DNA from: Hyphomicrobiales bacterium
Lineage (GTDB): Bacteria; Pseudomonadota; Alphaproteobacteria; Rhizobiales; JAJFHB01
NCBI GenBank assembly: GCA_021775755.1
Contig: JAJFHE010000054.1
Location: forward strand, 62,001-126,000
Direction: 5' to 3'
Length of the DNA: 64,000 bases
A program made the position numbers and the translations under genes. Below are positions 58,021-64,000 of this stretch, in pieces (within the stretch, counting starts at the first letter, position 1; every line of letters begins with the position of its first letter). Under the pieces are notes generated by a model. That model was given only the letters and a program-made list of their open reading frames with translations, was not told where the DNA came from and searched no databases.

Positions 58021-59487
58021 TCACGGCAGGCAATCAAGGTACATCTTCACGTCCCAGTCAGACGTTTCCCAAATGAATTTCTCCCACTCGTCGCGCTTGT
58101 ACCAGTCGTAGATCGTGTAGAGATTTCCAGGCAACGCGGAGCGCACCACATCGTCGCCTTTCAATGCATCGAGCGCATCGCGCAGCGTGTTGGGAATGCG
58201 GTTGACTTCTTCACCGGCCATCATCAGTTCGGCGATATTCTGTTCCTGCGGATCGCCTGGATCGATCTTGTTCCTGATGCCGTCGTCGAAACATTTATAG
58301 AGCGCCGCCTGCATGAGATACGGATTGACCATGGAGTCCACGGCACGGAACTCGAAACGATCCGGGCTCGATACGCGCACGGCACAGGAGCGGTTCTGCA
58401 GGCCCCAACTCGCGCCGACCGGCGCCCACATGCCGAGATCGTTGAGCCGGCGGTAAGAATTCACCGTGGACGAGCCAATGGCTGTGAGGGCGTTCAGATG
58501 CGTCAGCATCCCGCCAAGTGCATAGCGCCCCACATCGGCGGGCAGCCAGAGTTCCTTGGGGTTGCGAAATTCGTTCGTCCCGCCGCTCGTATACTCGAAC
58601 ACCTCGTCCATGCCCGGCAGCGGCCCCTTGACCAGATCCTGGACGTTGGCCTCGCCGCCGGACCACATGGAGATATTGTGATGGCAGCCATTCGCCGGCA
58701 TGCCCATATAGGGTTTCGACATAAACACGGCGATGAGGCCGAATTCGCGCGCCACCTGCGCGCAAATTTGGCGATAAGTTGTCAGCCGGTCTGACGTTCG
58801 CAGCGCCTCGTCATACGTATAATTGAGCTCCACCTGCCCCGGTGCGTCCTCGTGGTCGCCCTGAATAATATCGATGCCCATGGCCACCGAATAGTCATAG
58901 ACACGCAGCCAAACGTCTGAGAGCTGCTCGAACTGGTCGATGTGGTAGGCGTAGGGTTTGGTGGTACCGGTGTAAGGCTCGTTGCCTTCTCCGGGCTTCA
59001 ACCACAGCATCTCCGGCTCACAGCCGACACGCATATGCATGCCGTTGTGATCTTCGCGAAACTGCTGATCGATACGGCGCAGATTGCCGCGCGAATCTGA
59101 ATCGAGATACTCCTCCGCATGTTCCGGGTCCTCGCGGCTCCAGAATACGGTGCAGAATACGCGCGCCATGCGCTTGTTCCAGGGGAGCTGGCAGAATGTC
59201 TCGGGATCGGGAAGCGCCAGAAGTTCCGACGCATTGGGCGGGAAGCCGATCAGGTTGCCGTGACGGTCGGCAAACACATTGGCGACGCCGCCGAGCCAGG
59301 TTTGCAGTCCGTCCTCGGCCATGGTCTCCCAGTGGCGCGCTGGTACGGCCTTGCCCATGATGCGACCGGTAATTGAGATGTACTGATAGTATAGGTAGTC
59401 GACACCCAGCTCATCGATTTTGGCGCGCACTTTGCGCACCATTTCATCGCGGCCGGGCGCTGACAGATATTTCTCAAGATCGCTCAC
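58021..59487 (-). CDS. Glutamine synthetase-like ligase (first)
   Basis: 488 aa from GTG 59487, preceded by GGGGAATTATC. GS fold: an N-terminal beta-grasp domain with DGLQTWLGGVANVFADRHGNLIGFPPN, then the catalytic parts GCEPEMLWL, VEL/N block with GIDIIQGDHEDAPGQVELNYTYDEAL, CHHNISMW (the HxxxS/W histidine region), AIGSSTVNSYRRLNDLGMWAPVGASWGLQNRSCAVRV and RFEFRAVDSMVNPYLMQAALY. It is clearly not GlnA. Relatives make gamma-glutamyl-polyamines, gamma-glutamyl-methylamide and similar conjugates. Same operon as a second paralogue and PhyH. Confidence 0.9.
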   Translation of the reverse strand: MSDLEKYLSAPGRDEMVRKVRAKIDELGVDYLYYQYISITGRIMGKAVPARHWETMAEDGLQTWLGGVANVFADRHGNLIGFPPNASELLALPDPETFCQLPWNKRMARVFCTVFWSREDPEHAEEYLDSDSRGNLRRIDQQFREDHNGMHMRVGCEPEMLWLKPGEGNEPYTGTTKPYAYHIDQFEQLSDVWLRVYDYSVAMGIDIIQGDHEDAPGQVELNYTYDEALRTSDRLTTYRQICAQVAREFGLIAVFMSKPYMGMPANGCHHNISMWSGGEANVQDLVKGPLPGMDEVFEYTSGGTNEFRNPKELWLPADVGRYALGGMLTHLNALTAIGSSTVNSYRRLNDLGMWAPVGASWGLQNRSCAVRVSSPDRFEFRAVDSMVNPYLMQAALYKCFDDGIRNKIDPGDPQEQNIAELMMAGEEVNRIPNTLRDALDALKGDDVVRSALPGNLYTIYDWYKRDEWEKFIWETSDWDVKMYLDCLP

Positions 59488-59520
59488 GATAATTCCCCTG
59501 TACCCAAGATTTCCAAAGCC

Positions 59521-60876
59521 TCACGGAATTTCAAGATATCGGCCGCGCTCTTCGGCACTGACCTGTTTTCTCAAAACCTGCTCCTCGTGGCGCCGTGTCG
59601 CCACGAAATAGTCGATGAACTCCGCGCCCAGCAGGTCGCGCGCCAGGGTGCTTGCATCAAGCCGCTCGGCTGCCTCATGAAGATCGTGTGGCAGCGCATC
59701 GCCCTCTGACGCTTCGTCCGGTCCGCCCCCCTCCATCGGCGGCGGCAGTTCTGCTCCGGTCTCGATGCCCCACAGACCCGCCGCAATCAGAAACGCCAGC
59801 GTCAGATGAGGGTTCGTATCGGCAGCCGACAGCCGGTACTCAAGCCGGCAGGCAGACTCTGGCGCGGGAACTACGCGCACCGCGGCCGAGTAATTCTGGA
59901 TCGCCCAGCTTGCCGAGCGCGGCGCCCAGTTTCCAGGCGTCAGGCGGCGGTAGGCGTTGACGCTTTGCGCACTCAACGCCAGCATGTCACCGGTGAGGTG
60001 AACGATGCCGGCCGTAAACTGACGCAACACCGTGCTCATGCCATCATCGGCGCCCGCGTCATGAAAAACGTTGCGGCCGGTGTTCACGTCTTCAAGCGAC
60101 AGATGCACGTGGCCCGACAGCCCTGGAAAATCGGCGCCGAGTTGCGCCATGAATGATGCCGTGAGGTCATTGCGGCGGAAGAACGCCTTGGTAAAGAGCC
60201 TGAAGAATGCCGCATCGTCCGCGGCCGCAACGCCGCCGGCTGTGCCGAGCGTCGCCTCAAAACACCCCGGCCCCAATTCCATGCCGAGCCCGTAAAGCGG
60301 TACGGCGCCGGCGCTCAACGTTTCATCGAGAGCGGCGATAAGATCGCCGTGAACCGCAGCACTCAAACCCGACCAGCACCGGTTATCGGGAGCAAAGAGG
60401 TCGGGATTGGCAAAGTTCTTCTCCCGCAACGTTTCCGCTGTTTCGTTGAGCACTATGAACTCAAACTCCAAGGCTGCCTTGACGCCATAGCCGAGCGCAC
60501 CGGCTTGCTCTTCGAGGTTCTCCAGGATCGCACGCGGCGAAAGCGGGCGCGAAGGTCCAGCATAGTCAGCAACGAGCAGGACCGCGTTGTCTTCAAACGG
60601 ATGCGGGCGAAGACTTGCCGCATCAATGGCAATCGGCTCGCCAATATAAGGCCCGGCCCGCGTTACGCTTTCCGAAGCATCCCACTTGTGCAGGACATTT
60701 ACGAAGGTCGGCCCGTTACGCAAGAATTGTTCAAACCGCGCCAGCGTAAAGCGCCGCTCGCGGAATACGCCCTCAAGGTCGAATATCCCAACGTGAACGG
60801 CTTCCGCCCCGCGCTCGCGCAGCACGGACATAAGCTCTGCATCCACCGAATGCTGTGTAGCTGGACCCTCAGCCAA
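59521..60876 (-). CDS. Glutamine synthetase-like ligase (second)
   Basis: 451 aa from TTG 60876, preceded by GGGGAG. GS fold with LEFEFIVLN (metal-binding acids), GMELGPGCFEATLG, GLSGHVHLSLED, LSAQSVNAYRRLTPGNWAPRSASWAIQNYSAAVRV and RLEYRLSAADTNPHLTLAFLIAAGL. It shares the organisation of the first ligase but is clearly diverged and shorter. First gene of the operon; a canonical sigma-54 promoter sits 56-70 bases upstream. Substrate likely an amine or amino acid that is gamma-glutamylated. Confidence 0.9.
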   Translation of the reverse strand: MAEGPATQHSVDAELMSVLRERGAEAVHVGIFDLEGVFRERRFTLARFEQFLRNGPTFVNVLHKWDASESVTRAGPYIGEPIAIDAASLRPHPFEDNAVLLVADYAGPSRPLSPRAILENLEEQAGALGYGVKAALEFEFIVLNETAETLREKNFANPDLFAPDNRCWSGLSAAVHGDLIAALDETLSAGAVPLYGLGMELGPGCFEATLGTAGGVAAADDAAFFRLFTKAFFRRNDLTASFMAQLGADFPGLSGHVHLSLEDVNTGRNVFHDAGADDGMSTVLRQFTAGIVHLTGDMLALSAQSVNAYRRLTPGNWAPRSASWAIQNYSAAVRVVPAPESACRLEYRLSAADTNPHLTLAFLIAAGLWGIETGAELPPPMEGGGPDEASEGDALPHDLHEAAERLDASTLARDLLGAEFIDYFVATRRHEEQVLRKQVSAEERGRYLEIP

Positions 60877-61129: not shown

Positions 61130-61143
61130 TTGATCCAGATCAA
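61130..61143. promoter_or_regulatory. FNR/Anr-type box upstream of the respiratory module
   Basis: TTGATCCAGATCAA, a perfect TTGAT-N4-ATCAA site. It lies 58 bases upstream of the first small membrane gene, at an activating distance, indicating control by an oxygen-sensing FNR/FnrL-type regulator. Confidence 0.85.
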
Positions 61144-61201
61144 AGATTAGGCACGGTGAATCGACCAACAATTGCATTCGCTGTCGTGTGGGGAGTCTGC
61201 G

Positions 61202-61366
61202 TTGAATCGCGGTCAGGCAGACTTTGGGGAGAGGGTTCACACAATCAAAAATCCAACAGGAAATTTGCTGTTCGGTCCCATCATCTTTGGCGTTACGGCT
61301 GCCGCCACCATTGTGTTTTTCTGGTGGCTTCTCATCTACGACCACGGCGTCGCATCGGTGCATTGA
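61202..61366 (+). CDS. 54-aa single-span membrane protein
   Basis: Start TTG 61202 is chosen because GGGGAG stands six bases before it; the frame has no better start. The product has a ~20-residue polar N-terminus (NRGQADFGERVHTIKN) and one membrane helix (LLFGPIIFGVTAAATIVFFWWLLIYDHG). Comparable in size to the accessory subunits of terminal oxidases such as CydX or CcoQ, but I see no match to their sequence. It is the first gene after the FNR box and 14 bases before the next small gene. Confidence 0.7.
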   Translation: MNRGQADFGERVHTIKNPTGNLLFGPIIFGVTAAATIVFFWWLLIYDHGVASVH

Positions 61367-61380
61367 CTAAGGGCTCGCGC

Positions 61381-61521
61381 ATGCAGATCAACTTGAAACA
61401 ATCCGCTGCCGCCAGTATCGGTTTTTTCGTTGTCTGGGCGATCTATTTCTACTCTATCGATTGGCTCTTGATGAGCAGTCAGGGACTGCCTGTCGGCCCC
61501 GATTTGATGCCTGCCATGTGA
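61381..61521 (+). CDS. 46-aa single-span membrane protein
   Basis: ATG 61381. The product starts MQINLKQSAAAS, continues with one membrane helix (IGFFVVWAIYFYSIDWLLM) and ends QGLPVGPDLMPAM. It lies between the first small gene and the CydA-like gene (6 bases before the latter's first start). An accessory or assembly role for the oxidase-like protein is a plausible inference from position only. Confidence 0.65.
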   Translation: MQINLKQSAAASIGFFVVWAIYFYSIDWLLMSSQGLPVGPDLMPAM

Positions 61522-61527
61522 TTTCAG

Positions 61528-63363
61528 ATGGGGGGATCGCAAATCGGATCTGGTGCAGACATGCAATGCCGGCAAAGCTGCGGGCAAGCATGCCGCCGCG
61601 CACTAACGCAGGTGATGCGTCCGGCGTGCATTTTGGTGTCCGCGGTTGTGTTCGCCACAGCCATCCCCGACCTCGCGCTCGCCGCCGGCGAAGCATTGCC
61701 AGCCCCCGTGCCGACGCCGGGCGATTACCCCCGTATCGGCGGTATGGGCGGCCGCGGCTTTGTCTGGGCGTTTGCCCAGATGCATCTGTTCCTTGCCGCT
61801 TTCGTGCTGGCGGTACCGCTGTTCGTGCTGATTATCGAGTTGCTCGGAGTGACGACAAAAGACCCGCGCTACGACGCCATGGCGCACGAATTCATGAAAA
61901 TCTCCATGGCGGCATATTCCTTCACAGCCCTCACCGGCGGCGGGCTGGCAATTGCGCTGTTCCTCTTCTATCCGGTGGTGATGGAATACCTCATGCAGGT
62001 ATTCCGCGGACAAACGCTGATCTATGCCGGCCTGTTCTTGATGGAGAGCCTTTGCCTTTACATCTATTTCTATTCCTGGAATGCGCTGCGCTACGGCAAC
62101 AGGAAATGGTTTCATCTGTCGATCGGACTTCTGCTCAACGCCGTCGGGCTGACCTTGATGTTCGTCGCCAATGCCTGGGCGACATTCATGATGTCGCCAT
62201 CGGGTGTGGACCCGCAAACCGGTGCGGTGATCGGAACTGTCTGGGAGGCGACCCGCAATCCGCTGTGGAACCCGCTGAACCTGCATCGTTTCCTGGCAAA
62301 TATCGCCTATGGCGGCGCGATCGTCGGCGCCTATGCGGCTTACCGCTTCTTGAGTGTGCGGACTGCAAAGGAGCGATCCCACTATGACTGGATGGGCTAC
62401 ACGTCGAACTTCATAGCCATCGCCGGGTTCCTGCCACTGCCGTTCGCGGGTTACTGGCTCATGGCGGAAATCTACGCCTACAGCCAACAGATGGGCATTA
62501 CCGCCATGGGCGGCGTGCTCGCCTGGCTGTTCATTATTCAGGCGGTGCTGATCGGCACCATCATTCTGGCCGCTAATTACTATCTATGGTGCGGCCTCGG
62601 CCGTACCGCGAAAGGCGCGACCTACGCGCCTTACGTAAAATACATCGCCGTAGTGATCGTCGCCGGGTTCCTTGTCTGGGTGACCCCGCATACGCTTATT
62701 TTGACGCCAGAAGAAATCCGCATACTCGGCGGCACGCACCACGGTTTCCTCGGACCTCTCGGCATCATGCCGGCCAAGAATACCGCGGTGAACCTGATGC
62801 TCGTGGCGACGTTCCTGTCGTTCCAGCTGTTTTACCGCTCCAGCCGCGAGCCCACGGTCTCATGGGCCCGCACGGGCAATATTCTGATCGTCACACTCTA
62901 TGTGGCGGGCATCATCAACATCGTCGCCGCCGGCATCTACGGCTACATCACCCCCACCGTCTATAAAGTCGGCGCCTCGGTTCCCCAGGTCGTGACCACG
63001 GTGTCGATCATCGTGTTCGCTCTCATCATCGACGGCTTCATGGGACGCGGTGCGAAGACGGCCAAGGTGCATTGGGGCCGCATGTCCACGCGCTCCCAAT
63101 ACGCGTTGTTTGTCCTGCCCGTTGCGTTCACCTGGCTGATGGGCCTGATGGGCTACATCCGCTCGTCGGTGCGCACGCACTGGCACGTTTACACCATCAT
63201 GAAAGACGCCTCGCCGGAAGCCTACATTCCAACCATCGGTCAGGCGGGCAACGCCATAACACTCATCACACTCGCGTTTATGGGCGTGATTGTCTTTGTG
63301 TTCTGGCTAAGCCAGCTTGGCGCGAGCAAACAGGCGGAACCGGCTGGAGAGCCTGCCGAATGA
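61528..63363 (+). CDS. CydA-like multi-heme-b membrane oxidase subunit (no CydB nearby)
   Basis: 611 aa, start uncertain (ATG 61528, 61561 or 61615). An N-terminal signal-like helix (ILVSAVVFATAIPDLALAAGE) precedes about twelve more membrane segments. CydA-family landmarks: His86 in FAQMHLFLAA (as E. coli His19), LMESLCLYIYFYSW with Glu173 (as Glu107) and His253 in NLHRFLANIAYGG (as His186). The position of Glu99 is not acidic and the canonical GRQPW quinol-loop motif is absent. With a c-type cytochrome next to it, it may receive electrons from cytochrome c instead of quinol, or be a bd-like oxygen or NO reductase subunit. No cydB is visible before the window ends. Confidence 0.78.
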   Translation: MGGSQIGSGADMQCRQSCGQACRRALTQVMRPACILVSAVVFATAIPDLALAAGEALPAPVPTPGDYPRIGGMGGRGFVWAFAQMHLFLAAFVLAVPLFVLIIELLGVTTKDPRYDAMAHEFMKISMAAYSFTALTGGGLAIALFLFYPVVMEYLMQVFRGQTLIYAGLFLMESLCLYIYFYSWNALRYGNRKWFHLSIGLLLNAVGLTLMFVANAWATFMMSPSGVDPQTGAVIGTVWEATRNPLWNPLNLHRFLANIAYGGAIVGAYAAYRFLSVRTAKERSHYDWMGYTSNFIAIAGFLPLPFAGYWLMAEIYAYSQQMGITAMGGVLAWLFIIQAVLIGTIILAANYYLWCGLGRTAKGATYAPYVKYIAVVIVAGFLVWVTPHTLILTPEEIRILGGTHHGFLGPLGIMPAKNTAVNLMLVATFLSFQLFYRSSREPTVSWARTGNILIVTLYVAGIINIVAAGIYGYITPTVYKVGASVPQVVTTVSIIVFALIIDGFMGRGAKTAKVHWGRMSTRSQYALFVLPVAFTWLMGLMGYIRSSVRTHWHVYTIMKDASPEAYIPTIGQAGNAITLITLAFMGVIVFVFWLSQLGASKQAEPAGEPAE

Positions 63364-64000
63364 CGTTCCTCCGCATAGTTCTCTTCAGTCTGGCGACGAT
63401 GTTCGCGTTCACGCTGTTTGCGAACATCCTGCCCCAGGTGCAGTCCGATCCGCCGAAAACGGAAGAGATAAACGAAAGCACGCTCGATGTCGCCGGACAA
63501 ATTGCATGGGGTCAACGCCTGTTTTCCGGCAGGGGCACCTGTACGTTGTGCCACAACGATCTGGGACGGGCGCCGGACCTCCTGCAGATGGACTTAGCCA
63601 CGGCTTTCGCAGAACGCATCGCCGACGCGCGTTACGAAGGCGAGGCCGCCGGGCAGAGCGGTGCCGGCGCGATTGAAACTTACCTGCGCGAATCCATGAA
63701 CGCACCGTCGGCATTCGTCGTCGCGGGCTTTGGCAAGAAGGGCACCAATGATGCCGAAAGCCCGATGCCGCGCGTCGATGCCGCCCCCCTGTCGCTTACG
63801 GAAACGGAAACAAACGCCCTGATCGCCTATCTCCAGGACCTGGCGGGCGAAGAGGTCACGGTCCCCCTGCCGTCGGCGGCAGACGCGCAAGACGGCGCGG
63901 ATGGCGATGGCGACGAGGCCGCCGAAGAAGAAGGGCCCTCTACATCTGCGGAAGACATCATGGACAGGCTTGGATGCGCCGGGTGTCACGATCTGTTCGG
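63360..64000 (+). CDS. c-type cytochrome, at least diheme (3' truncated by window edge)
   Basis: The ATG overlaps the end of the CydA-like gene (ATGA), so the two are coupled. 213 residues are visible. One N-terminal membrane anchor (FLRIVLFSLATMFAFTLFANIL), then two heme motifs: CTLCH at 61-65 and CAGCH at 206-210. Between them is an acidic, low-complexity linker (DGADGDGDEAAEEEGPSTS, about 178-196). Expected to be periplasmic and covalently bound to two or more hemes. More motifs may follow past the edge. It probably passes electrons to the CydA-like protein. Confidence 0.85.
   Translation, partial: MTFLRIVLFSLATMFAFTLFANILPQVQSDPPKTEEINESTLDVAGQIAWGQRLFSGRGTCTLCHNDLGRAPDLLQMDLATAFAERIADARYEGEAAGQSGAGAIETYLRESMNAPSAFVVAGFGKKGTNDAESPMPRVDAAPLSLTETETNALIAYLQDLAGEEVTVPLPSAADAQDGADGDGDEAAEEEGPSTSAEDIMDRLGCAGCHDLF

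Follow-up and report, generated by a model that had tools for sequence, protein, structure and literature searches.

A CydA-like, OR-N-type module with cytochrome c partners and its linkage to an Idr-like operon in marine Proteobacteria

Introduction

Cytochrome bd has relatives that seem to have parted from quinol. Genomes of Nitrospina, Nitrospira and anammox bacteria encode a bd-like protein of 14 helices that lacks the quinol residues, is clustered with a diheme cytochrome c, a triheme cytochrome c and an alternative NxrC, and is regarded as putatively cytochrome c-oxidising (PMC3578206, PMC6606698, PMC8026999). The group of bd-like proteins lacking the quinol site corresponds to the OR-N family of Murali, Gennis and Hemp (2021), as that work is cited in PMC10839748 and PMC12342949, where its members are thought to oxidise cytochrome c. 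A second system of relevance here is the idrABP1P2 operon of Pseudomonas SCT and Denitromonas IR-12, which encodes two MauG-like peroxidases, a TAT Rieske subunit and an AioA-like molybdenum subunit, and whose gene set is considered diagnostic of iodate reducers (PMC8692401). In marine aerobes, the activity and expression of Idr need low oxygen (PMC11445184). Among the open-licence papers searched, we found none that joins iodate reduction with cytochrome bd or that reports a tie between Idr-like and bd-like genes.

Here, we describe a locus in which a relative of each system is found. The window, that is, the whole stretch of 64 kb that was analysed, corresponds to positions 62001-126000 of contig C50 of its genome (G000), and its end falls inside a cytochrome c gene, so that part of the module was read from the contig beyond it.

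Gene organisation of the module

The first-pass annotation placed a respiratory module at positions 61130-64000, and these coordinates are correct (Table 1). The CydA-like gene and the gene for the diheme cytochrome c are in coupled frames, as had been claimed: the start codon of the latter lies inside the stop codon of the former, in an ATGA overlap at 63360, and the cytochrome has exactly two CXXCH motifs over its full length. Another ATGA overlap joins it to a third gene, which encodes a fusion with four predicted transmembrane segments and an EB_dh domain akin to the heme-b subunits of the type II DMSO-reductase family, such as NxrC. The trio of the CydA-like protein, the diheme cytochrome c and the triheme-c/EB_dh protein was adjacent in 61 of the 62 loci that could be tested.

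Table 1. Coordinates of the features of the module and of the operators (window positions unless preceded by C50 or L004)
Feature	Coordinates	Strand	Basis or remark
FNR/FixK-type operator TTGATCCAGATCAA, palindromic	61130..61143	.	sole perfect box in window
Micro-protein 1, single TM helix, core FFWWLLIYDHGV..H	61202..61366	+	TTG start uncertain
Micro-protein 2, single TM helix, core YFYxIDxxxMxxQGLPVGxDLMP	61381..61521	+	kept in most related loci
CydA-like (OR-N/bd-like) membrane protein	61528..63363	+	PF01654 partial match, AlphaFold model, residues, tree
Membrane-anchored diheme cytochrome c (CTLCH, CAGCH), 285 aa	63360..64000, on to C50:126217	+	Pfam Cytochrom_C
Triheme-c/EB_dh (NxrC-like) fusion, 766 aa, membrane-anchored	C50:126214-128514	+	PF09459, three CXXCH
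Second FNR/FixK-type box TTGACATTGATCAA	C50:142651-142664 (L004:8652-8665)		upstream of first gene of Idr-like operon

No cydB was found next to the CydA-like gene, either in the window or past base 64000, where the fusion is the next gene, and the sole cydB of the genome lies on contig C29 beside a canonical cydA. The lack of a visible CydB that had been pointed out earlier thus extends beyond the window. An ordinary CydAB quinol oxidase whose cydB had been overlooked could still be suggested by the Pfam match to Cyt_bd_oxida_I, but this explanation is refuted by the sequence, given that there is no cydB nearby, that the protein has no Q-loop (see below) and that the canonical pair is encoded elsewhere, and we leave it practically no credit.

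The two small open reading frames upstream of the CydA-like gene, which had been annotated as tiny membrane proteins, are real genes. Micro-protein 1 is kept 5′ of the CydA-like gene in alphaproteobacterial loci and in several gammaproteobacterial ones, and the recurrence of single-helix cores in related loci (FFWWLLIYDHG.. for the first and ..IMxxQGLPVGxDLMP for the second) rules out chance reading frames.

Several other neighbours deserve mention. Directly upstream of the module, on the minus strand (58021-60876), are two adjacent glutamine-synthetase-like genes (488 and 451 aa) that are distantly alike. Beyond the trio, also on the minus strand (L003:9958-14397, C50:128957-133396), we found genes for a protoporphyrinogen-oxidase-like protein, an AhbD/NirJ2-like radical SAM protein with a PCP_red domain and a USP protein with a PCP_red domain, which are also found beside the bd-like trio in loci that have no Idr genes; their products might serve in the synthesis or insertion of a modified heme. 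A secreted CarboxypepD_reg-like protein and a 794-aa HEAT-repeat protein (L003:14537-17729, minus strand) travel with the module as well.

The CydA-like protein

The CydA-like reading frame matches PF01654 (Cyt_bd_oxida_I) over residues 83-330 only (E 2.5e-17), has no family in NCBIfam and no match in plasmids, and reaches bd oxidases only weakly in a sequence search of the PDB (E about 3e-7). Its most likely start, judged by a signal-like sequence and by conservation, is at 61615, where a signal-peptide-like segment (MRPACILVSAVV...) begins. The AlphaFold model (pLDDT 83, pTM 0.84) has the CydA fold, aligning with solved CydA chains with Z scores of 28-31 over 346-361 residues and with subunits of alternative complex III with Z scores of 17-21. 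Matches below Z 8 (fumarase, COX1 and CcmF) were set aside as common helical arrangements. Following the signal-peptide-like N-terminus are 14 transmembrane helices, nine of them those of CydA and five of them extra; in our reading of the model, the extra helices (about 304-474) would lie between TM6 and TM7, at the site of the Q-loop.

Compared with canonical E. coli CydAB, the protein shares the CydA fold and the residues H19, H186 and E107, whose positions (H86, H253 and E173 in the window, the two histidines being those of heme ligand positions) are invariant in 92 of 92 relatives, but CydB and the Q-loop are lacking, K252 and E257 are replaced by glycine in all 92, M393 (the heme b558 ligand) is replaced by serine and E445 by serine, glycine or alanine, the alignment being less reliable over its C-terminal half. 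E99 is likewise not kept in this alignment. Without M393, E99 and E445, the protein probably binds a set of hemes other than the canonical one. The motif GRQPW is absent, no Q-loop was found hidden in the alignment or by structure comparison, and no quinone site of a known kind is left. The first-pass annotation was therefore right about the missing quinol-loop motif, the place of which is taken by the five helices, in which there are invariant K, E and H residues.

Relatives and the known kind

A scan of 84,980 genomes gave at least 524 relatives of the CydA-like protein, from which 80 loci were kept. In the tree, the window belongs to a clade with strong support. Its 48 rows come almost entirely from Alpha- and Gammaproteobacteria and include all Idr-linked loci of the scan, and the bd-like proteins of Nitrospirota and Nitrospinota form its sister group. 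A more distant paralogue, found as an additional copy in loci such as L072-L095, makes up a clade of its own.

The locus has in common with the Nitrospira, Nitrospina and anammox clusters its gene set, the 14 transmembrane helices and the replacement of the Q-loop by membrane helices (PMC3578206, PMC8026999). In contrast to them, its triheme cytochrome c and NxrC-like EB_dh domain are fused into one protein, its molybdenum partner is Idr-like rather than an NXR, and it adds the conserved micro-proteins and an FNR/FixK box. With the OR-N family it shares the relation to CydA, the absence of a quinol site and of CydB, and a putative cytochrome c donor; it differs in that one CydA-like copy takes the place of a CydAA′ pair, in its Idr linkage and in its FNR/FixK control. 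One genome (G048:C330:11693-21192; L008-L011, L016 and L017) does carry a tandem CydA-like pair, similar to CydAA′, beside an Idr-like operon, where the window's genome has one copy.

These matches to the published descriptions and to OR-N indicate that the first-pass annotation had rediscovered a known kind of protein. Its reading of a bd-like, cytochrome c-linked protein stands with regard to the absence of CydB and of a quinol site and to the fixed c-type partners, while the novelty of the kind does not, as it has already been described. Both conditions under which it would have been an ordinary bd oxidase, a cydB directly after the window and a hidden Q-loop, were checked and did not apply. 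What is new is a monophyletic branch in marine Alpha- and Gammaproteobacteria linked to an idrABP1P2-like operon, and the module is a well-conserved OR-N/bd-like variant that is fused, controlled by FNR/FixK in Alphaproteobacteria and tied to that operon. The NxrC-like subunit and the operon were missed earlier because both lie beyond the window.

FNR/FixK-type operators

The perfect FNR box TTGATCCAGATCAA occurs once in the 64 kb of the window, against 0.016 occurrences expected from its composition. When we counted boxes of the form TTGAY-N4-RTCAA in the 800 bases 5′ of the conserved part of the CydA-like gene, we found one at the corresponding place in 13 of 14 related alphaproteobacterial loci, where 0.067 would be expected, a degree of conservation that rules out a chance origin and that bears out the earlier claim of a perfect FNR box. 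The same count gave 2 of 30 gammaproteobacterial loci and 4 of 36 others, and thus the FNR/FixK control of the module appears to be mainly alphaproteobacterial. Only two such boxes are present across L003 and L004 (30 kb), one before each of the CydA-like and Idr-like operons. By itself, the box sequence would be compatible with FNR or with FixK-type regulators and would not discriminate between them; a gene for an FnrL-like regulator, with its CX2CX7C cluster, is present in the window's genome. The conserved box supports the FNR-type control that had been proposed, and induction at low oxygen may follow from it.

Canonical bd oxidases handle NO, and FNR/FixK control is common for NO-handling genes, which would be in keeping with a protein of bd ancestry that reduces or detoxifies nitric oxide or another small molecule. 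Nevertheless, the conserved module comes without nitrogen-oxide genes, and such a role seems to us very improbable.

Linkage to an Idr-like operon

Some 8 kb beyond the trio, the opposite strand encodes an AioA/IdrA-like molybdenum enzyme together with a TAT Rieske subunit and a pair of MauG-like peroxidases; the complement known from idrABP1P2 is thus complete beside the window. Of the 28 loci of the window clade, 19 had Idr-like genes no more than 10 kb downstream, as against none of the 18 loci outside it, and in the nearest relative (L018), the molybdenum gene lies just past this limit. In an even sample of the class (239 genomes, with the window's own genome excluded), the CydA-like protein was present in four of the eight genomes with the molybdenum enzyme and in seven of the 239 overall (Fisher p 1.8e-5). 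The link between the CydA-like and Idr-like genes is strong but not obligatory.

The molybdenum enzyme is 27-30% identical to AioA and about 49% identical to a type carried by three Roseovarius genomes and by plasmids of Azonexus and Thiothrix, which may correspond to the experimentally tested IdrA. In Azonexus and Thiothrix, these genes sit in idrP1P2BA-like operons. The window-linked enzyme branches apart from this type in the tree, and the CydA-like protein is absent from the same three Roseovarius genomes and from the Azonexus and Thiothrix plasmids. The predicted Idr-like enzyme next to the module has the operon make-up known from Pseudomonas SCT and Denitromonas IR-12; the type that it resembles at about 49% lacks the bd-like module. 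Sedimenticola hydrogenitrophicus (G303; L058, L133), of which the cultivated strain SN1189 carries the module, has three Idr-like molybdenum genes: two belong to the bd-linked branch (66-67%) and the third stands at 48%.

This divergence, the lack of a bd-like gene in the genomes or plasmids with the 49% type and the presence of both enzyme types in one Sedimenticola genome would also suit an enzyme working in the oxidising direction, as AioAB or NXR do, with electrons from an inorganic substrate passing through the NxrC-like and c-type subunits to the bd-like oxidase, by analogy with clusters of NXR and bd-like genes (PMC6606698, PMC8026999). We consider this unlikely, as the idrABP1P2 synteny, including both MauG-like peroxidases, is regarded as characteristic of iodate reducers (PMC8692401), and the FNR boxes fit a low-oxygen reductase.

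The main rival to an oxidase, rather more probable though still on the unlikely side, is that no oxygen is reduced and that the complex transfers electrons, possibly with ion translocation, between the quinone or cytochrome c pool and the periplasmic Idr-like enzyme. A similar role has been suggested for the bd-like and alternative NxrC clusters of Nitrospira and anammox bacteria, the latter being proposed for reverse electron transport (PMC3578206, PMC6606698). The loss of M393, E99 and E445, the inserted helices with their invariant residues, the resemblance of the model to alternative complex III subunits and the linkage itself would all agree with this. However, both core histidines at ligand positions are invariant, as is E107, the protein retains no known quinone site, and many members, for instance those of Myxococcota and Nitrospinota, have no Idr-like neighbour.

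Proposed function

The reading that we prefer, at about an even chance, is that of a low-oxygen, cytochrome c-fed oxidase complex of the OR-N type that is coupled to the neighbouring Idr-like operon. A drop in oxygen would lead FnrL or a FixK-like regulator to activate both operons together. Electrons from cytochrome bc1 and the cytochrome c pool would enter through the anchored c-type hemes and the b-heme EB_dh domain and would pass to hemes at H86 and H253, where oxygen would be reduced, and quinol would not be the direct donor. The complex might thus act as a high-affinity cytochrome c oxidase that shares carriers with the Idr-like molybdenum enzyme and keeps oxygen from it.

This reading is supported by the lack of CydB and of the quinol residues, by the helices at the Q-loop site within a CydA fold (Z 31), by the constancy of the trio and its sister group in Nitrospirota and Nitrospinota, and by the encoded bc1 and FnrL-like regulator, together with the low-oxygen need of Idr in marine aerobes (PMC11445184). 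It is also supported by the linkage, by the co-occurrence and by the boxes before both operons. The window's genome encodes, besides cytochrome bc1, four heme-copper oxidase subunit I genes and canonical CydAB; the module would therefore be an added, specialised branch and not the only oxidase, and the oxidases already present also count against an oxidase reading. Furthermore, a similar cluster persists in anammox bacteria, which are strict anaerobes; this disfavours an obligate role in oxygen reduction and, with the lost canonical heme ligands, makes it our main doubt whether oxygen is reduced at all.

A bolder proposal, somewhat less likely than not, is that a horizontally shared marine island unites an OR-N bd-like complex with a molybdenum enzyme that is the sister of IdrA. 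The two would form one FNR/FixK-controlled electron-transfer unit, with the five inserted helices and the two micro-proteins as its new parts, and this unit might either alternate between oxygen and an iodine oxyanion as acceptors of cytochrome c electrons or couple the oxidation of an unknown substrate to oxygen.

Significance

Oxygen reduction with cytochrome c is putative for the bd-like (OR-N) proteins of nitrite oxidisers. Given that the carriers described here are Proteobacteria, that some of their genera have cultivated members and that the module lies behind a recognisable putative low-oxygen switch and beside an Idr-like operon, they may offer a simpler setting for testing OR-N function. 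The findings also indicate a second branch of Idr-like enzymes in marine bacteria, which could bear on iodine or sulfur cycling.
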